64,000 nt of DNA. Source: Capitulum mitella (taxonomy: Eukaryota > Arthropoda > Thecostraca > Pollicipedomorpha > Pollicipedidae). A program made the translations under genes and the position numbers. The notes under the pieces were generated by a model, which saw only the letters and a list, made by a program, of their open reading frames with translations, had not been told where the DNA came from and did no database searches. Positions 2,705 through 43,973 of the stretch are shown in pieces (the stretch's first letter is position 1; each line of letters begins with the position of its first letter). The stretch lies in NCBI GenBank assembly GCA_030062745.1, contig CP099848.1, forward strand, positions 11,367,501-11,431,500, in the 5' to 3' direction.

Positions 2705-3885
2705 TTAACTCTATTCCCTGCAGGTTGGGGCTGAATCCGCTAAGCTGTTTTTTTTTCCTTGCCAATTCTAGGCTTTTAGCGCATTTTCTCGAAACTTGGT
2801 GACTTTTCCTAACCATCCTTTCTATGTGTTGTAACAAAACTTAGTAATTCTATTTTGCTCAAGGGCGAAGCCAGGCAACGTTTTTGGAGGAGCCTCAGGC
2901 CGTTTTTGACCCTGTTCAGGGTAAAAGGAAAATGTTTGCCAAAAGTAGCATTTTTAAGATAGAACTTAATATTTTATATGGATGTATAGGTAAGTAGCTG
3001 GACAACATACAGACACACTTTTGTTTGTCTGAAACCACTCTACAAGGTAAGGTCAAGTTCAAAAATCAAAATTTGGTTTTACAGTAATAATTTTTGCGCT
3101 ATTATTTCAAACGGCAAACCCAAACATATATGCCGTAGAAGGGTACCTGTGTACCAAGGGTACTTGTGTACCAAGTTTCAGCTTGATAACGGGTCGGGTC
3201 ACGGATCTATGACCTACAATGTCAGTGCGCGCACCCAATATCACAACAGCCGTAAAATGAAAGTTTAGAAATAGAGTGAATTCAAATGATTGGAAACGTT
3301 TTCCAATAATTATCCTAAGGTCATTGGAGGTCATTTAAGGTCAATGGTCATAAGTTGATCTGAACAATATGTCACCATGATAGTTTTCCCTTTTCATGTC
3401 CCTGGTACCGCCTACGCTAACATTATGCCAACACTGTAATACGATTTGTACTTCTTCAGCATAACATGACTATGAGAAGATAAAAAGGTATTTTGAACTT
3501 CCTTTTTTTATTCAGTTTTTGAAAAACTAATCCTCCTATTTTTGAAACCACGTGAACGCCTATAACTTTCCTCAAAATCTGAAATGTATGGGCCAACGGT
3601 AAAAGTCCCATCCATAATCTCCTGATTCATGCCAGTTTCATCAAAATCGGTCCATAAACAACAGAGTTATAACAAGTGCAAAAATGTCCCCCATTTTTGC
3701 CCCCTGTATCCAACCCTTTCGTAATTTTGAAAACTTCTTTTTCTAAAAATGTAGTCTACATCATGGCAAATCGATTGCCGTTTGTTGCATTGAAATCGAA
3801 TGAATAGTTCTCAAGATCTGGGGGGGGGCGAATCCCCCCTGCCGGGAATCCGCTATACCGTTTAGCCCTCCGGGAATAAAGTTAA
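2705..3885 (+). mobile_element. TTAA-flanked non-autonomous DNA element, family A, copy 1
   Basis: The sequence is bounded by TTAA at 2705-2708 and 3882-3885. The terminal inverted repeats read TTAACTCTATTCCC on the left and TTAACTTTATTCCC on the right (reverse complement). A G-run/C-run hairpin sits just inside the right end (3820-3838). The whole interior aligns with the split copy at 37619-38046 plus 42814-43556. It holds no transposase frame, so it is non-autonomous. TTAA targets are known for piggyBac and Kolobok transposons; which of these it belongs to cannot be told here. The interior carries three AGGTCA-type half-sites at about 3316-3345. Confidence 0.75.
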
Positions 3886-33419: not shown

Positions 33420-36180
33420 ACTAGATGACACTGTCAGGTCTTATTAGTGATGGCGGGCACGCACCAAATGACGCTGCAGTGCGAGTCTGTAAGGCGACAC
33501 GGGCAGCTGATGGCAGCCAGGTGCCAGGGCGTTGTACAAGACGGCAGCTGGCGTGCAAAAACAGCGCTTTCCCATCTCGGTGCGGGACCGTGGGACATGA
33601 AGATCACCGTCCTGCCTGGTGTTCCTCTGATGCGTCTCAGATACTGTAAGGAGCCAGCCGGCATGGTCCTCGGGTTTGCCCTACATGCGGACCTTGTGTA
33701 ATAGCCAGAGAGCAGGCAGCCTCACCAGACCGTCAGCAGAGAGCCAGCCGATCTTCTGAAGCAGGTCCGACACATGACCGGATTTTTGCGACCGGAAATA
33801 ACTTAAGTCGCGTAATTCGGTGTCTTTTTTAAGCCGAGACAGGTTGCTCTTCGTACCATTGCCATAGACAGAGATGCAATATCGGAACTGCGACAGAACC
33901 AAGGCGTTCACTGACGTCGTGATGACGCCGGTGGCAGGCAGTGCTTCAGATGTGACAGACCAGCCAAGATTCCGAAACATCGTTTGATAGTAAAAGATAT
34001 ATGAAAATTCCAGCTGAGACTGCGAACAATCCGAGGTTTTTGGCTTCCAAACAGGGTATGAGATGGTGGTCGCGAAATTTCATCGTGAAGATGGGGATAC
34101 TACGAACATTTCTGGCACTTACGAGCAACATCAACTGGGTTTCGTCGGCACTGACCTTTAAACCGTTGGATCTGCTCCAAATATCAAGTGAGGCGAGGAC
34201 GCGTTCCAATCGAGTGGTGATGTTTTTTAATTGAGATTCAGGGCCACCTACCAAAAGCTGAATATCATCCGCGTGCTGGACCACCACTGCGTCCTCCGCG
34301 AACAAACTGAGGTCGTTCGCGAATTTCTGGGAGACGCCGATGTTGTTGGGAAAGAGAATTTGGTGGAACCCGGACTGTCAGTGATGCTGACGCTCTAGGT
34401 ACGATCCTGAAGACAGGCCGAAAACCAGGAAAAGCAAATTTCGTGGCCTTGGAGATTAGAAAGAAGTCTGGAGTGGTCTATCACATTGGAGGCCTTGCTG
34501 AGGTCGAGGAGACAAAGCAGTGATATTTCTCCACGGTTGTTGACAGACAAGATGTGGTCGAATATGGAGATCAACGCGGTTTCCGTCGAGTGTCGCGAGC
34601 GGAAGCCGTGCTGTGCGGGGGAAAGGAGGTGGTTGTAAGATAGGTAATCGTAGAGCTGCTGGTGAACAGTTCGTTGTACGAATTTGGTGATCACTGGGAC
34701 AATGGAAATGGATCTGTAGTTGCAGGGCTGTGTGTGATCGCCGGATTTAAAGATGGGGAAAACTAGTGAATGTTTCCAGGATGTCGGGACTTTGGAGAGA
34801 GATAGGCTGGGGTTGATCAGGTGAAGAAATGTTAGGCCGATAGCCTCATAGTTGAGGCGGATAAGGTGCACGCAAATACCATCCTCACCAAAGGCCGAGG
34901 AGCTGTTCATAGTGAACACGATGGTATGCAGCTCGATAAGGGTGAGGGGCGACAGTGACAATGCGCAGGCGCCAACACATGACAAGCGGCATGCAGTGTG
35001 GGGCAGCACTCCCTGACTGGTTACCTCGCCGGTCACACGTGGGCGTACACCAACAAAAAAGGTGTTCAGCTGGTCAGGTGCCGCTTCCGGTATCACACGC
35101 GCGGGCCTACTGCCACTCACAACAGCGAGAATGCACCGTCACATGGACATGCGTGTCGTGCGGCAGCGCCGGCCGCACAGCGCGGTTTAGTTCCCTGTAG
35201 GAGTGGGGACAAAGTCCGTGCCGCGCTAGAACCCGCCGGCCACGCCGCATCAGGCCTCAGGTTCCGTCGGCCTCCACAGGGGCGCTAGGGTTGCGTGGGC
35301 GCATCAAGAGGAACGGGACGTGCGCGTCCATAGTTGGAGTGAACACTTCGATAAAACGCTGCCAGTTCTCTGTCCCAGTGCGAGATAAAGACACCGGGCT
35401 GCCAGTCGGCTCTCAGTAAATCGTAATGAAAAAATGGCAGGTCAATGCGGCGCAATGGACGAGCACGAGTGGTGATCGCTGGCGGGCGGGTTCTGGGTAC
35501 AGAGATAAAGAGCGAACTAATTTATGCGGACTAAAATTAAAGAAACGGGTGCCTTAGCAAACGACTAGATCACGATCGTTATCTAAAAACGAACCAAAAA
35601 TAAAAGTACTAGAACTGACATAATAAAACAGTAAAAAATTAGACAAAAATCGAGTCAGGCGAGCCTTGCAGCAGTCGCTGCTGGGTTTGAGGTAGTCACA
35701 ATTTAAACCATCATAGAGCAGGACCTTAGACGATGAAAAGTCAGCTACTAGACGCTGCAATTGAGCATCAAGACCGCTAAAGTCCGCCCCCAAAATCCGC
35801 CATTGAACGTTTCGGAGGCCGATATAACGAGCTAACGAAGGCCTGACCCTTATCAGCGGGCTTCACTAATTCCTAGAGATTCCATACTGCTACCGGGATG
35901 AGGCGGGACAGCAGCCTTGATACGCGCTAAATTGAGTCCACCCCGGGCAAGCTCTGCGACGCCGCCATAGCCGCGGCCGTCCGGCCGGTCAGCGCGCAGC
36001 AGCTGGTAGCCGGGCGCGACCAGAAGCCGGGTCGAGATAGTCGGTTTGAGCCAGGACTCGCTGAGCGTGAACAAATCGTACTTGAACTTGTCCAGTTCGT
36101 GAGTGAGCTCCAGGATCTTCGGCTTGGAGCTCTGATTGTTCAGATAGCCGATGAGAAGGCTTGGAGTCGCTCCTGGCCGT
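33420..36180 (-). pseudogene. Degenerate CR1/Daphne-like non-LTR retrotransposon
   Basis: Minus-strand fragments in different frames spell, in order, parts of one LINE ORF2. An apurinic-type endonuclease part lies at about 36150-35560 (SESWLKP, GYQLLRADRPDGRG). A reverse transcriptase part at 35120-34395 includes CNYRSISIVPV, QHGFRSRHSTETALI and the motif A region LCLLDLSKA, where the usual AFD is ASN. Motif C HADDIQLL sits at 34305-33946. The C-terminal part runs from 33980 to about 33430. Frameshifts and stops break it at least four times. Around 34330 the conserved block between NNIG and NDLSLFA (the GxxLGPLLF motif) is missing, so the copy is inactive. Such elements reverse-transcribe their own RNA at a nicked genomic site. 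The 3' boundary is uncertain. Confidence 0.85.
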
Positions 36181-36424: not shown

Positions 36425-37240
36425 GATATAGATATATTTCTGTCATTCGCATTTTCCTTATAACGTTATTCAGCTATGCATATACAAATCTCGACGTTTC
36501 GGCATGATGGTGCCTCTTCAGGGGAGCAAAATTAACATAAATATTATACAGTGAATCAGAACACAATACAAGAAAGCATCAGTGCGGGCAGAAAAAGGAC
36601 AACTCGGATATTCACGCAAATATTGGTAACCACCCACATTTAGGAGAGTTTAAGATACAGCCTTCAGTAGAAATGATGAAACCATAGTATTTGAGGTGGG
36701 TTACTATTTTTTAATGTATGGCGATACAAGAACCCGTAAGTCTAAAGCTTTGCTTCATCTGCGAATGATAGTGAAATTATCAATACGTACTAAAGAGTCT
36801 CAAAGTGCGGAATGATCTCTAATTGGAGAGGGATCTGGATGGGAGAGGGGGGAGACCTGTGCGGTCAGACCTAATTAAATGTGCTGAATCTGAGGTGGAG
36901 ATTACGAAGGGCAGACCCAATGTAAGACGCACCACACGAAGCGCAAAAGAAACGGTAAACCAATGACGATTGGCAGCATTTACGTATTCCGTCCTTGACT
37001 TTACACAATGACCTTGTGACAATGTGACAGACAATGAATTCAAACAATGCCTCTGACCCTAAACTGGACAAATACTTCGTGTTTCCTTAATTCGGACCAG
37101 AATTTGAACAAATGAGGGCTGTTGTCTCCAATGTAATCGCCACTTTCTACTCTTATCTGAACTCTAAAATTATTTTGGTCAATTCCTCCAACACAGGACC
37201 ATTGTTTAAATTCAAGGACAAAACACCTAAATGATGCCAA
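36425..37240 (-). pseudogene. Penelope-like element, 5'-truncated copy 1
   Basis: The minus strand encodes the C-terminal GIY-YIG-type endonuclease region of a Penelope-like element: a Cys-rich VYRFFCASCGASYIGSALRN block at about 36950-36890, then IRDH, then DNFTIIRR and DLRVLVSPYIKK-like remnants. Stops interrupt it. It aligns inversely with 37205-37618 plus 43557-43775, which gives an empty-site copy for the TTAA insertion: the target lies at 36650-36653. Reverse transcriptase sequence is absent because the copy is 5'-truncated. The 3' part carries a hammerhead-like motif (36496-36521) and ends in AT-rich sequence. Confidence 0.8.
36496..36521 (-). ncRNA. Hammerhead-ribozyme-like core in Penelope copy 1
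   Basis: On the minus strand, CTGAAGA is followed by GGC, an 8-base loop, GCC and GAAAC. This matches the hammerhead core CUGANGA / stem II / GAAA. Penelope-like elements are known to carry minimal hammerhead motifs near their ends. Stems I and III are not obvious here, so self-cleavage activity is uncertain. The sibling copy has CTGAAGG instead (43684-43710). Confidence 0.42.
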
Positions 37241-37618
37241 TCATTATTGGTTTCCCGTTTCAACTGCGCCTTGTGCGGGTCGTCTTGCGTTGGGTCCATT
37301 CTTTGTATCGTTTATATATCGTATGTGTATCATCGTGGTCCCAGTCAATCGTCGGGTCCGCCCTTTGTAATCTCCACCTCAGGATTCAGCAGCATTTATG
37401 TCGGTCTGGCCTCTCATGTCTACCCCTCCCCATCCAGATCCCTCACCAATTAGAAATCATGTCGCATTTTGTGACTCTTTAGAAAGCATTGACAGTTTCT
37501 CTACCATTCGCAGATCAAGCAAGGCTTTAGGTTAAGGTGTTCTTGAATCGTTAAACATTAAAAAAGAGCAGCCCACCCTAAATACTATGGTTCCACCATT
37601 ATCACTGAAAGCTGTATC
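37205..37618 (+). pseudogene. Penelope-like element copy 2, part a (5' of insertion)
   Basis: This plus-strand stretch is an inverted homologue of 37040-36654 and encodes the same GIY-YIG-type region (FQLRLVRVV, GSALCNLHLRI) in broken frames. A short AT-rich duplication interrupts the Cys-rich block. Copies 1 and 2 are head-to-head, both 5'-truncated near 37.2 kb. The copy is cut at the TTAA at 37619 and resumes at 43557. Confidence 0.78.
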
Positions 37619-38156
37619 TTAACTCTATTCCCGGCAAGAGGGCTAAATCAGCCCTCTCCTCGCGTGTTTTGCTTGCCAATTCTCGAAATCTGGTTGGTTT
37701 TCCTGACTGTTCTTTCTACGTACTGTAACAAAATTCCGTAATTCTTTTTTGCTCAGGGGCGGGGCTAGGCATCGTTTTTAGGAGGCGCCTCAGGTCATTT
37801 TTGGCTCTACCGAGGGTAAAAGAAAAATGGCTGCCAAAAACAACATTTTTAAGATAGAATTTAAAACTTAATATGCGTGTATAGGTAGATAGTTGGACAA
37901 ACACGCAAATGTAATTTTGTTTATCGGAGGCCATTTCACAAGGTCAGGTCAAGGTCAAAAACCAAAATTTGGTTCCATAATAATAATTTCGGCGCTATTT
38001 CCCTAAATACCAAGTCCGGAATACATGTGACGAAAAGGGTACCCTCCAGGGCCTATTTTAAGGAAAAATGACTGCGGGGGCAATTCTGCGAACGAGACGC
38101 ATTGGTTGAGACCACCCCCTCCCCGGCATTTGTGTTCTCCTTATTAAATTTTGTCC

Positions 38157-38162
<6 letters not shown>

Positions 38163-38216
<54 letters not shown>

Positions 38217-38292
38217 TATATATTCCTAAGGAAAGACATATATATATATATATATAAATGCTTTCCTAAGGAGGGCATACATATATACATAC

Positions 38293-38332
<40 letters not shown>
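38163..38332. repeat. (AT)n microsatellite with embedded inverted repeat
   Basis: Long (AT)n runs are broken by a perfect 11-bp inverted repeat, CCTAAGGAAAG (38225-38235) and CTTTCCTAAGG (38261-38271). The loop between them is itself (AT)n. The whole could form a cruciform near the left end of the hAT element. Confidence 0.88.
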
Positions 38333-38333
<1 letters not shown>

Positions 38334-38799
38334 AGGGCGAATTACGATGAGCACTTCCACAGCGCTCTGTCATTAACTGATATGTCTTTTGGAGGAAACC
38401 ATGTGTGCAAAATATGGCCTTGGTCCAGCACTCTTAAGCACTTTCACACAAAGACTGTATGTCGTTTGTGGTGGATTTTATTTTATTTCGATGAAATTCG
38501 CGCTGGCTTTTGTGCATTCCGAGCCCATTAAATTCAAAGGGCACCATTTCATTTATCCCCAGCAAGAACTCATTCTCCCTGGATTTGTGATCCCTGGGAG
38601 ATTCGCTCAGGGATGTCTGAAATGCCCCCAAACGTGTTTTGTGCTTCAGTTTTTTAAAAGAAGCGCACGATATGCATAAAATGCACATTATAGTACTCCT
38701 TTTCACACACTGGATCGAAAGACACTTCGCATTCTGTCTCAGGTCATTGGTCACTGGCCCTGTCGGCAGCAGTGTGGCTTAGGTGGGAATGATACTTCA

Positions 38800-40990
38800 G
38801 TCCTCTTAGTGGTCTCGGGGTTCTGGCGACGATGCTATTCGACGACTTGCAGCAGTTACTGCTTTTGCCCTTCATCCTTCGTCAGCACCTTGTTGTATAC
38901 TTGGATAAGAGTCACAGCTCGTTCGGCGAAGTCGCTAACTACCGCGATCCCGCACAGGACTTCCTTAGCGTTCGTGAAGCCAGGTGCTGTCTCCCAATCA
39001 GCGGCATCGGCGGCAAGGAAGTCCATGTTGATGCCGTAGGCTTTCGGGTTTCCCACCGACTTTGCGGTAATGAAGTCGACGATGATCTTCCTGGGACGAG
39101 AACCTCCTTTTCTGCGAGATCCACTTGCGCTCGCTGGGAGGACTCTCCGATCCCTGTTCCTGGAGTGCCGCGATCATCCTCGTCTTCATCTCACACGGCA
39201 CGCCCTCGTCGAAGAACGACACACCAGCCAGTTCTTCGCTGGGGCACCATAATAGGTGATTGTTATAATAAATCATATGTCGACTATAATGTCATAATAG
39301 ATAAAAGGTGATCGGCAAACTCCTTGGAGATCCCCTTCGAAATTTCAGCATTCACATCAGACTTTGCAGAACGGCCAGGTCGTGCACGGAAGCGCTGACC
39401 GCCGATGAAGAACAGAACCATGCACTGACATACAAAACAACCATGAAAGAGACGAAGCGCTTGAGTGCTCCCAATTCACTGAGAGTCACGGAGAACTGAC
39501 GGCAAAGCAAGAAGATCTTGATCTCGCAGATTATGCGCCCCATCCATCTGGCGCGATGGAACCATCTATCTGGGACGTTGGAGAGCACCCGGCTGGGGAA
39601 CTTGATTCGCCGTGGAGGCTCTTGACCAAAGGGGATAATCGAGACCTCAAAGAACCAACGATGATCATCGCTAGGCTGGATTTCGGCGAGCTTCTCACGG
39701 CAGAAGGCGACGAAACGATCATTGGAAGAGAAAAACGTCTCGGCCACTGCTGGCTCCAGGTCTTCATACACCATAGGTTCAAACTTGTTCCAATCAATGA
39801 GTCTCCATCTCTTCTTGAAGCTCTTGAACAAGGAGATCGCGGTCCCGAGGACGAACCGAAGCGCGTGGAGAAAGCCGCCTCTGCCACCAGTTCGACGATA
39901 TGATGACGACAAGCAAAGTGAAAAGGCCGTCACTCAAGCTTCTGCTGAAGAAGCGTGTTTGCTCCCACAACTTGTCCAGTATTGCTGGAGGTGGTGTCGA
40001 AGCTCATGCCGACGACGTTGTCCGAAACCTCTCAGTATTCCAGACAAAACGCGACAACGTCGGCTGGCGTTGCTCCGGCTCTACTTGCAACTTCCAAACA
40101 CCGAAGAGCTTGGCGGCACTTCTTGGACCGGCTACAATGACAGAGTCGATCCACCTTTTCCTTTCTATCGTCAGTAACAGTTTGCCGTCCCAGTGGACCA
40201 CCAGGTTGGGTAACGCGGAGAAAGAATGCTAGATTTCGTCCGCAATGGCTTCCCTCTGCGATCTACGTGCGCGCCTGCCCGAGCTTCTGTGATCGCCAAT
40301 TCAGAGGAGTCGTGGCCGAGGACCGAAGCCGTCGCCGATAGGAAGTGAATTGCAGAGCGATCATTGAGCTTGGTCCGATCGAGGGCTGCTGCCTGACCAG
40401 GAGTGGCGATGTTCTTGGCTTTCCTGCAGGGCCGATTCGAAGGCATGGCCAAGGGCTGCGGGTCATCCTGATCTGTCAATTATGTGTTGTCGGTAGGCGA
40501 GTATTCCAGTTGGGCAGTTGCCTCATGCTCGGTCTGCTGTTTAATCTAATGGCGGGCCCTTTAAAGCTTCGGCCTACTGTTGTCGTTGAAGAGCTCGCTC
40601 CTCCTTCTCAGAAGGGAACTTATCGAATACCACCATGACGCCTCGGCGACCTGGATCGCTTTGGGCCTAGAGAATGTCTTTATCCTCTTGGTTTTGATGA
40701 TCTTAATGGTGCCGACAAGGGCAAGGTCAAAAACATTGTTAAGGTTGTCCCTAAATCCATTCTTCTTGTCAATTTCCGGGCTGAACCTCCAGAATTTGCC
40801 TTTGGTACTGGTCAAGCTTCCTGTTGAGCTTCTTTATCACGTTCCGCTCCGGTGCAGTGAGAATACGGGCTTTGTTCCACACCTTTATCATTTCGCGGAC
40901 GATCTGTGTTTTGAACTACCTCTGGGTAAGCCTATCCGCACGGTGGGACTGAAAATATTGCTGCAGCACTTCTCCCCGCGAAGGCAGTTC
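38800..40990 (-). pseudogene. Broken hAT-like transposase
   Basis: The minus strand preserves, across several frames, the landmarks of a DDE transposase found in many invertebrate genomes. HWDGKLL (about 40195) is the likely first catalytic Asp. FDTTSSNTG (about 40008) is the likely second. ACRHHI follows at about 39915 and resembles the C-x2-H motif of hAT proteins. Next come the helical block FHRARWMGRIICEIKIFLL (about 39555) and PSEELAGVSFFDEG (about 39240). The C-terminus has VVSDFAERAV and TKDEGQKQ (about 38940-38860). At least four frameshifts or stops separate these pieces, including a TGA just before ACRHHI. The N-terminal third (40990-40270) is more eroded. The product would have excised and reinserted the element; this copy cannot be active. 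Confidence 0.75.
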
Positions 40991-41184
40991 TGATCACCGG
41001 TCAACCAAAATTCGGCTTTTTTCTCGTGGTGCAGCCATAGTGGCACAGACTTCCGTTATAAAAGGTACTTTCTGCATTGACGCAGGTGGTCCTTAAATAT
41101 CCTGACGTCTAAGAACGCGCGGAAAATTGCCAGACCGGCACCGTGGGTTGCCGTGGCATGGCAAGGCGTGGTACTTCAAATATA

Positions 41185-41782
41185 CAGGGTGTCCATAAAG
41201 TCTCTTTACAATTTTAAAAATTTATTACAAAGGCAGTTGATAAATTATCTTAACCAGACTTGTTTTGTTTTAATCCGTGTTTATTAAAGTTTGTGATCAC
41301 ATTGAAATTTTGTGTTTCAGGTATTCTGTTGGTGGACGGGGTGCTGTTAAATGGAACCCTAAAATATGGCTACTCCTCAAGAGAAGGCACAATGTGTATC
41401 ACGGTTTATTGAGACAAAATCGGATGTGCAGACTCAGCGAAACTATCTACCAGATATCACTCCCTTGGGCTTCTTTCTATGGGGTTATGTGAAAGATATC
41501 GTGTATCGAATAAAGATACGGGACATTACTGACTTGAAGCAAAGGATTTCTGACGTCATTGCCAACACTAAAGAGGCTGTGCTACAGCGAACATGGCAAG
41601 AAATCGAGTACCGTCTTGATGTGCTTCGTGCAACTAATGGTGCCCATACAGAGGTGTATTAAATGAGGTAAAAAAAACTTTGACAACCACTGATTACATT
41701 AGATCAAGTCTAGTTAAGAAATCTTGTCAACTGCCTTTGTAATAAATTTTTAAAATTGTAAAGAGACTTTATGGATACCCTG
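41185..41782 (+). mobile_element. Internally deleted mariner-like element
   Basis: Terminal inverted repeats of about 55 bp with only isolated differences (starting CAGGGTGTCCATAAAGTC left, CAGGGTATCCATAAAGTC right) are flanked by the dinucleotide TA at 41183-41184 and 41783-41784, the Tc1/mariner target. The element is 598 bp long and lies inside the hAT element. Confidence 0.92.
41366..41662 (+). pseudogene. Deletion-fused mariner transposase remnant
   Basis: The 98-codon frame joins the first roughly 28 residues of a mariner-like transposase (ATPQEKAQCVSRFIETKSDV, the start of its helix-turn-helix domain) directly to its C-terminal end (PDITPLGFFLWGYVKDIVYR to LDVLRATNGAHTEVY). Full-length relatives are about 330-350 residues, so most of the DNA-binding domain and the first two catalytic Asp residues are deleted. 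The third, in PDxTP, is retained. The frame is still open, so a short peptide could be made. It may only act as a substrate for an intact relative elsewhere in the genome. Confidence 0.88.
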
Positions 41783-43556
41783 TATAAGTCACAGTCTGCA
41801 AACGATGGCCAGAATATTGGCGAGATGTTGCGGCAGCTTCGATTCTTCCCTAAATGAGACAGTAGGTTGCCTGTCCGGGGTAGTTTCTGTTAATCTAATC
41901 TATCCCCAAAATACATTTTCTCACCGAATTTTGGCCATATGTTTTTCAACACTGCGCAGAAGTGTAAAAGCTGTCCTAACACAGGCAGAACAAACTTCTC
42001 CATTTCCAGGTTATCGGCCCCAAAATAAAAAAGTCACCTCAGATTGAAATATTCGCCTTAGGCCCGTCTCAATGACATATCACCAACATTCGTCATTATC
42101 TGCAGTCTGGGCCATGCCATGTTCGTTAAGCAGATGAAGCATGCTCATGGGATGCTCAAACCCATGCACTAGGAGCAGCAAGATTGACGGTTTTAATATA
42201 CGACTGATTAATTTTCTGTTTTCCTCGCGTAAAACTCGGGTTTAACCGCCTAGTTCAATGAAGTTCTACCAATCAGGTACTGGGATTTTAGCAGGGTTTT
42301 CGGATCAGGATGATTGGTGATGACTACAACACTGCTGGACTGTTACCGCATTCATATAAACCTTATCTCACCATAGCGAAACCGCCCTGCGCACCAGCTC
42401 GCCCTTCAGTTTGCTTGCGCTTGAACACATCAGGGATGGTTATCATCATTTTTAACGTGCTTACGATGCAATGAAACGCCTTGGCCGCCCACCAGACAAT
42501 CGCGACATCGGGTGCCGGCGTACTAATTACGAAACACGCTCGCCAGCGGTCACTAGGTGTGCCTGCAATACGTATTATAAAGTGATGCTTCTAAGTGTGC
42601 TCCCACATTACTCAGTGATTCAACACATCCTTCGTTGATAAGATGCTGCTTTGCGAGCGCAGCGCTTTATGGAATACTTTCCTGGGTACGCTAGTACACC
42701 TGGCTGTTTTTTTCCTTGCATGGGCAAAGGATCTTGACTGGGGGGGCAAAGTGCCCGACTGGGGGGGCATTTGCCCCCCCAGTTAACATGTTAAAATAGG
42801 CCCTGGTACCCTCCACTTGTGTACCAAGTTTCAGGACAATATTAAATTGGGTGTCAGTGCGCTTACCCTCTATATCACAATAGCCGCAAATGGAATTTTA
42901 GCAATAGAGTGGATTCAAATGACTGGAAACGTTTTCAACCAATATGAAATGCACCCAAGATCATTCCATGTGACTCTAAGGTCATTGCAGGTCATTTAAG
43001 GTCAGAGGAAGTAAGCTTACCCGATGAACATGTAACCATGACAGTTCACCCTTCTCATGTCCCTGGCACCGCCTATGCTAATATTATACAAACAATGTAG
43101 TACGATTTGTACTTCTTCAGCACACCATGACTAGTACAAGCTAAAAAAGTGTTTTTAACTTTCTTGTTGCTTGAGTTTTTTTTAAAAACTAATGCTCTTG
43201 TTTTTGAAACCCTGTGAGCGCCCATGAAATTTCTCAAAATTTGAAATATATGGACCGATGGTAAAAATCCCATTTATAATCTCTCGATTGACGCCGATGT
43301 CACCAAAATCGGCCGATATACAACAGAGTTATGATCAGTCCAAAAATTTCTGCCATTTTGACTTTTTTTGCCCACCTATATCCACCCCTTTCAATATTTT
43401 GGAAATTTCTTTTCATAAAAATGTAGTATGCATCATGGCAAAGCGACTGGCATTTCCTGCGATGAAATCGGATGTGTATTTCTCGGGGGGCCAAATCCAC
43501 CTCCCCTCCTTGCCGGAAATCGGCCATTTTGTCCACCCCTTAGGGAATAGAGCTAA

Positions 43557-43775
43557 ACTCTCCTAAATGTGGGTGGTTGCCAATATTTACGTAAATGTCC
43601 GTCTCGCTTTTTTCTGTTCGCACTGACGTTACCTTACGTTATCTTTTTATTCACTGTGTAATATATGTACTAATTTTGCTCTCCTGAAGGTGGCACCATA
43701 ACGCCGAAACGTGGGGAAGTGTATATGCATAAATAAAGAATGCAATAAAGAACATACGAGCGACAGAAAAATATT
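43557..43775 (+). pseudogene. Penelope-like element copy 2, part b (3' end)
   Basis: This resumes copy 2 after the TTAA insertion: ACTCTCCTAAATGTGGGTGG matches the reverse complement of about 36649-36630. It continues through a hammerhead-like motif (43684-43710), then TGTATATGCATAAATAAAGAA and a run similar to the 3' end of copy 1 at about 36430. Confidence 0.78.
43684..43710 (+). ncRNA. Degenerate hammerhead-like motif in Penelope copy 2
   Basis: CTGAAGG then TGGC, a loop, GCC and GAAAC. This is homologous to the motif in copy 1 but has G in place of the conserved A9 of the CUGANGA core, so it is expected to be inactive. The stem II pairing GGC/GCC is kept in both copies while the loop differs. 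Confidence 0.35.
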
Positions 43776-43973
43776 TATCTCCAGACGAAATATTCAAAAC
43801 AAGCTGAAACTATACATACATATTTTCCTTCGTTGATATGCTCGTCTGGGATGGTGTCTGGGGTCATTATGATTAAAAACCGTGGAATTACGCCAGTCAC
43901 TCTATAATTATATTTATATTGATCGATATCACTCATCGTACCTTGGAACATTCTCAAGAAATAAACAATCGCG

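Follow-up and report, generated by a model that had tools for sequence, protein, structure and literature searches.

A stack of transposable elements in Capitulum mitella, lying within a 64,000-nt stretch of contig CP099848.1 (this whole stretch is called the window; the genome comprises 477 Mb in 16 contigs), is nested four deep: a Penelope-like element is cut by a TTAA element (family A), which is cut by a hAT transposon, which in turn contains a mariner. All four elements are present and, as the initial annotation had proposed, their boundaries hold to the base. The order that it had read from the nesting, Penelope, then family A, then hAT, then mariner, stands for the first three steps and fails at the last as an event at this locus, as the same mariner (95–100% identical) sits at the same hAT position in 15 other loci. 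We conclude that the mariner was already inside this hAT before the hAT landed and that it arrived here as a passenger, such that a nesting depth of four corresponds to three landings, those of a Penelope-like pair, of family A and of a hAT::mariner composite. The account that we hold with high confidence is one of three local insertions, the last of them pre-loaded with a mariner that had been captured once, elsewhere, in an ancestral hAT.

One mariner at one position of the hAT

The composite occupies 38047–42805 on the minus strand (4759 bp), has the ends CAGGGCC...GGCCCTG and is flanked by an exact 8-bp target duplication, GTACCCTC, at 38039–38046 and 42806–42813. Inside the hAT lie a TA-rich microsatellite (38162–38335) and, on the plus strand at 41185–41782, the passenger mariner, an internally deleted copy of 598 bp with TA on either side (41183–41184 and 41783–41784). 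A genome search with this mariner gave 60 candidates; the best 40 were scored, and 33 of them were near full length by our own count. Fifteen matches at 98–100% identity, the window's own included, all fell at hAT loci and in the same place, which in L038 was seen in part only, its left side reading N. Among 17 further mariners, for each of which one flank was fetched, a sixteenth case (L061, 95% identity) had hAT flank at the same place, and its locus, fetched whole as L078, proved to be a full hAT with a duplication of its own, GGACAAGC. The other 16 had unrelated left flanks, and the mariner thus also exists alone; one near-full-length copy, C10:17158874, lay outside the flank check. In all, 16 of the 33 near-full-length mariners occupy one position of the hAT (3135–3740 in the bearing copies), most simply as a single insertion moved by its host, and 15 of these 16 loci, the window among them, are full-length hATs.

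A search with the right part of the hAT gave 553 first-look candidates, of which the best 40 were scored: 16 bear the mariner and 24 fall outside the mariner match list, itself drawn from the best 40 of 60 mariner candidates. The two of these 24 that were read, L031 and L034, are both empty. Copies of both elements were picked by their likeness to the window, and the counts are not genome-wide proportions. Twenty full-length hATs were available for comparison, 15 with the mariner (window included) and five without. All five mariner-free copies read CAAATATATAAGTC, an unfilled site with a single TA and no excision footprint, and filled and empty sites together display the TA target duplication of the mariner. 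The mariner retains a frame of 99 amino acids with no Pfam match, the start and end of which we take to be mariner-like.

Exact 8-bp duplications flank 18 of the 20 full-length hATs (15 found by script, L027 by eye, and the window and L078 read separately), and all are of different sequence. A duplication of the whole stack was considered and rejected, as the flanks of the other hAT copies differ. In L024 and L025 the 8-bp duplications are exchanged between the pair, left against right, the pattern expected had recombination between two hATs inverted the intervening stretch; these loci (G000:C7, ~17.31–17.32 Mb) lie ~3 kb apart in opposite orientation, and both are hAT::mariner.

An unrooted tree built from 3959 hAT columns, with mariner and microsatellite excluded, separated the bearing from the mariner-free copies on a branch with support of 99.6/100 and 10 fixed sites; with L078 added the support was 99.9/100, and L078 had the bearing state at 10/10 sites. 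Among 13 bearing copies without L039, the two hAT parts diverged pairwise by 0.61% and 0.84% on average and the mariner by 0.50% (0.80%, 0.98% and 0.68% with L039 included), and L039 itself differs from the window at 73/3954 hAT sites and 10/598 mariner sites, which fits joint descent. The shared position, the separate target duplications, the exact empty sites, the supported split and, within the main group, the comparable divergence of the two elements together argue for one capture, elsewhere.

In the window copy, private changes affect 3 of 3959 hAT sites and none of the 602 mariner columns. On a rough reading, with no rate applied, the capture precedes the landing here by a good deal, the two standing at ~1% against 0.1% in substitutions. 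The landing of the hAT::mariner at this locus is recent, and far younger than the family A layer. An insertion of the mariner last, into this hAT at this locus, is allowed by the nesting itself and by the TA on both sides, but the occurrence of the same mariner, identically placed, in hATs of 15 other loci, together with the absence of any window-private change in its 602 columns, leaves that scenario with next to no credence.

Two further explanations would account for a shared position by way of repeated events. TA is the insertion target of mariners, several of the free copies lie in TA-rich runs, and a hot TA in the hAT might have been entered independently several times by different mariners. 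We regard this as very improbable: the supported branch and its 10 fixed sites divide bearing from mariner-free hATs, orientation and position are identical in the copies compared, and the main-group mariners lie 0.5% apart, whereas the full-length free copies checked are 93–96% identical to the window. Alternatively, the mariner might have spread among existing hATs by gene conversion and not by joint transposition, for which the unequal divergence of one copy (L037, below) offers some encouragement in suggesting exchange. The chance of this is similarly slight, in that every bearing copy is young over its full length and a tree made solely from hAT sites also divides the copies according to whether they bear the mariner.

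Several observations weigh against the account preferred here. The tree is unrooted and does not settle the order of L039 and L078 (0/66). The sample is biased, consisting of the best matches to the window's hAT or mariner, and a set of 20 full-length hATs is small when compared with 553 first-look candidates. In L078 (G000:C6:16548000–16553200) the mariner differs from that of the window at 21/598 sites (3.5%) and the hAT at 71/3955 (1.8%), which breaks the argument from equal divergence for that copy; the excess may be due to a second insertion such as the hot TA would invite, to conversion by a free copy of the mariner, or to chance. In L037 (G000:C7:9082400–9089300) the right part lies 2.1% from the window and the left part 0.65%, and from this unevenness gene conversion among hATs probably occurs. 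Lastly, for the outer layers, family A lies 18.6% from its majority sequence and the Penelope arms lie ~20% apart, such that the clocks alone do not order these two layers and the nesting does.

Boundaries, family A and the order of landings

Family A is split by the composite into a left part at 37623–38046, which includes the first copy of the hAT target, and a right part at 42814–43552, both on the plus strand. On its left it abuts a TTAA (37619–37622) and on its right a CTAA (43553–43556), and its own duplication is no longer exact. The window contains no N bases and thus no marked gap at either 38.05 or 42.81 kb, the two points at which an assembly join had been named as a possible refutation.

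In silico removal of the hAT and of family A, as had been suggested, bore out the nesting. With the hAT removed, the remaining sequence stays collinear with other copies of family A through the join, except for a one-base gap a few bases to the left, as judged from the 7 of 13 copies that held the exact anchor used for this comparison. With family A removed, the join reads ...CTGTATCTTAAACTCTCCTAAATG, identical to the other Penelope arm over the same point (read by eye). A second copy of family A in the window, copy 1 (2709–3881, plus strand, flanked by TTAA at 2705–2708 and 3882–3885), had been put forward as an empty-site control. It does lack the hAT, but it has a short local duplication exactly at the equivalent of the hAT site (by eye), which makes it a poorer control.

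The sequence Penelope, family A, hAT is borne out by copies of Penelope without family A and copies of family A without the hAT elsewhere in the genome; among the copies examined, neither the Penelope/family A nor the family A/hAT junction was seen at another locus. For family A the best 40 of 8525 candidates were scored and 19 loci besides those of the window were cut out, six of which did not align to both ends and were left out of the end counts. All 13 remaining copies, and copy 1, have TTAA on both sides, as against TTAA/CTAA in the stack, and the ends extracted from these 13 of the 19 fetched copies read CCCTATTCCC or close variants. By these ends, and by features typical of piggyBac, family A appears to be piggyBac-like. 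Measured against the column majority of the 13 other copies, the stack copy diverges by 18.6% and copy 1 by 16.6%, as compared with 4.3–7.5% for the 13 themselves; these divergences are upper limits, since the 13, which were picked for their likeness to the stack copy, may represent younger members.

The possibility that family A inserted once into Penelope and was then copied along with it was tried and rejected: a match to Penelope arm 1 within ~1.5 kb was found at 0/19 other family A loci, and 0/4 fetched Penelope copies contain family A. By BLAST, family A lies beside only two other hAT copies, L023, where it is cut by a hAT::mariner, and L028, where it is ~140 bp away. L023 (G000:C9:29035100–29041900) is a second family A copy interrupted by the composite, at another position and with a duplication of its own, CTGTATCC.

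The Penelope-like layer

Arm 1 of the Penelope-like layer (36425–37018, minus strand) is antisense and 5'-truncated, and was delimited by self-BLAST and by copies in the genome. Arm 2, in the sense orientation on the plus strand, is divided by the inner layers into a 5' part (37061–37622) and a 3' part (43557–43781), and ~42 bp (37019–37060) separate the 5' ends of the two arms. Self-BLAST aligned 36425–37018 with 37192–37626 and 43554–43781 in inverted orientation at 78–82% identity in pieces. The limits near the junction follow from many Penelope copies in which query 637–816 matches the opposite strand beside query 1–594, placing the start of arm 2 at ~37061 and the end of arm 1 at ~37018. 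Arm 1 had been described as a second Penelope copy that provides an empty site. Its TTAA near 36650 is indeed uninterrupted and the empty site is valid, but the copy appears to be one half of an inverted pair and is probably not an independent insertion.

The two arms probably represent a single insertion in inverted, head-to-head layout. Two separate insertions would fit arms that lie ~20% apart, about as far as each is from other genome copies, and would also fit the absence of any target duplication recognized by eye around the pair; the distance itself leaves one and two insertions undecided. Set against this, the 5' ends face one another across ~42 bp, and the layout, plus then minus, recurs at other loci (for example C9:403608–404811, C10:28069052–28069970 and C2:13778480–13779346). 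For Penelope-like elements, head to head is reported to be the most frequently observed inverted layout, and 5'-truncated arms such as these are described (PMC3846280). We therefore treat two insertions as the unlikely alternative, though one that retains appreciable weight. The present copies differ from the described elements in that only the endonuclease end and the 3' region remain.

For this layer the best 40 of 123 candidates from the genome search were scored. By our own count, 40 alignments at places beyond the window extend over the TTAA position, with two at some loci, one per arm. Six alignments begin at query 223–271, of which the four that were fetched have no family A at that point. 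At L079 (G000:C3:3370600–3370800), one of these four, a Penelope copy stops at the same TTAA and a different sequence, beginning TTAA-CCCGCC, starts there; the TTAA in Penelope is perhaps a favoured site. In nine Penelope-derived copies, query 51–487 is joined across a short gap to inverted query 399 to ~535–550 with near-identical break points, resembling a hairpin of fixed form that is copied whole or is carried by another element.

The name Penelope-like is a provisional one, drawn from the layout, from a GIY-YIG match below cut-off (PF01541, E 0.023, 15.4 bits against 22.6) of a read-through assembled by eye, and from reading by eye; a protein search with the same read-through found no relative. 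A CUGAAGA...GAAAC motif, which we take to be that of a hammerhead ribozyme, can be made out by eye close to the 3' end of each arm. Rfam gave no hammerhead match and nothing at gathering score, with 25 weaker matches, most of them in the TA-rich stretch. Just upstream of the stack lies a reverse transcriptase fragment (34398–35138, minus strand; PF00078, E 1.8e-8), which, with a sub-cut-off match to EACC1, was all that Pfam recognized in ten frames of the window.

Mobility of the composite and the reading of nested insertions

The composite appears to have moved without a working transposase of its own. A decayed transposase is discernible on the minus strand from ~40480 to 38860 (limits by eye) and is broken in the window copy, and none of the eight hAT copies inspected has an open frame of >219 amino acids. 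The ends CAGGGCC...GGCCCTG are kept in the copies compared, with an altered stretch before the right end in L027 and a start of CAGGGCT in L078. The read-through of the transposase matched 228 proteins at E <= 0.001, mostly unnamed; the named relatives include proteins of Artemia franciscana, Chionoecetes opilio and Bemisia tabaci. A structural model of one relative, P0005 (mean predicted local distance difference test score, pLDDT, 89.4), returned Hermes chains as all ten of its best PDB matches (best E 6.7e-6, template modelling score 0.32–0.44). The predicted hAT fold is thus that of a folded relative and not of the window copy itself. Pfam gave no such indication: 0/10 relatives scanned matched any Pfam model, the read-through itself had only a chance-level match to eIF2_C (E 0.23), and the DUF4371 label that P0070 bears at its source was not recovered by a Pfam scan at E 0.01. 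The homologues P0001–P0120 (alignment A1) form a large hAT transposase family with a Hermes-like fold, the ten scanned members again being those without a Pfam match.

With P0005 as query, many frames were found in the C. mitella genome, some of them long and without stops, and the matches include open frames of 500–880 amino acids. An intact relative, L083, showed no likeness to either end of the hAT, and the end of the L083 element itself was not located. A supply of transposase in trans, and the element that provided it, are inferred.

The history that we propose is as follows. A 5'-truncated Penelope-like pair landed head to head, and its sense arm was then entered by family A, a TTAA element with piggyBac-like ends. 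A hAT lacking a working transposase arrived in family A much later, bringing the mariner with it. That mariner had inserted a single time in an ancestral form of the hAT, at a TA beyond the recognizable part of the dead transposase gene; with the hAT ends intact, transposase from elsewhere would have kept moving the 4.7-kb unit and given rise to a small hAT::mariner subfamily. A more ambitious proposal, that the composite became a new selectable unit whose mariner gave the host lineage an advantage (through spacing, chromatin or evasion of silencing, for example), strikes us as improbable; under it, the mariner-bearing branch would have become the youngest and most active among the copies sampled.

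The individual layers resemble known systems. The hAT shares with Hermes-type elements its 8-bp target duplications, its CAGGG ends and transposase relatives that fold best onto Hermes; it differs in having no long open frame in eight copies, in having ten relatives without a Pfam match and in carrying a mariner. Family A has TTAA on both sides and CCCTATTCCC or close variants as its ends, like piggyBac-type elements, from which it differs in its length of ~1.2 kb. As in the transpositions in transpositions (TinT) approach, insertions of element into element provide a time order; the portion of that account available to us concerns retroposons, whereas here the inner insertion is common to many loci and was moved by its host element, and to score every such locus as its own event would be a mistake (PMC3014933). 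Nested insertions in plant PIF/Harbinger elements likewise involve DNA transposons that hold other elements, but those described in the accessible part of that report are single interrupted elements, in contrast to the multiplied composite found here (PMC2213677). Literature searches returned no described hAT::mariner composite, which is no proof of its absence in print.

We regard these as ordinary nested transposons that carry one instructive correction. Nested insertions serve as clocks, in which the inner element is taken to be younger than the arrival of the outer one, and this locus is a clean counter-example: counting layers misorders the events because the mariner already rode inside the hAT, as the pair does at 15 other loci. 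An inner element is younger than the host sequence that it interrupts, and not necessarily younger than the arrival of that host at the locus. Where hosts move their inner elements, transpositions are overcounted and the local order of events is read backwards; a single search for shared inner junctions detects such cases.

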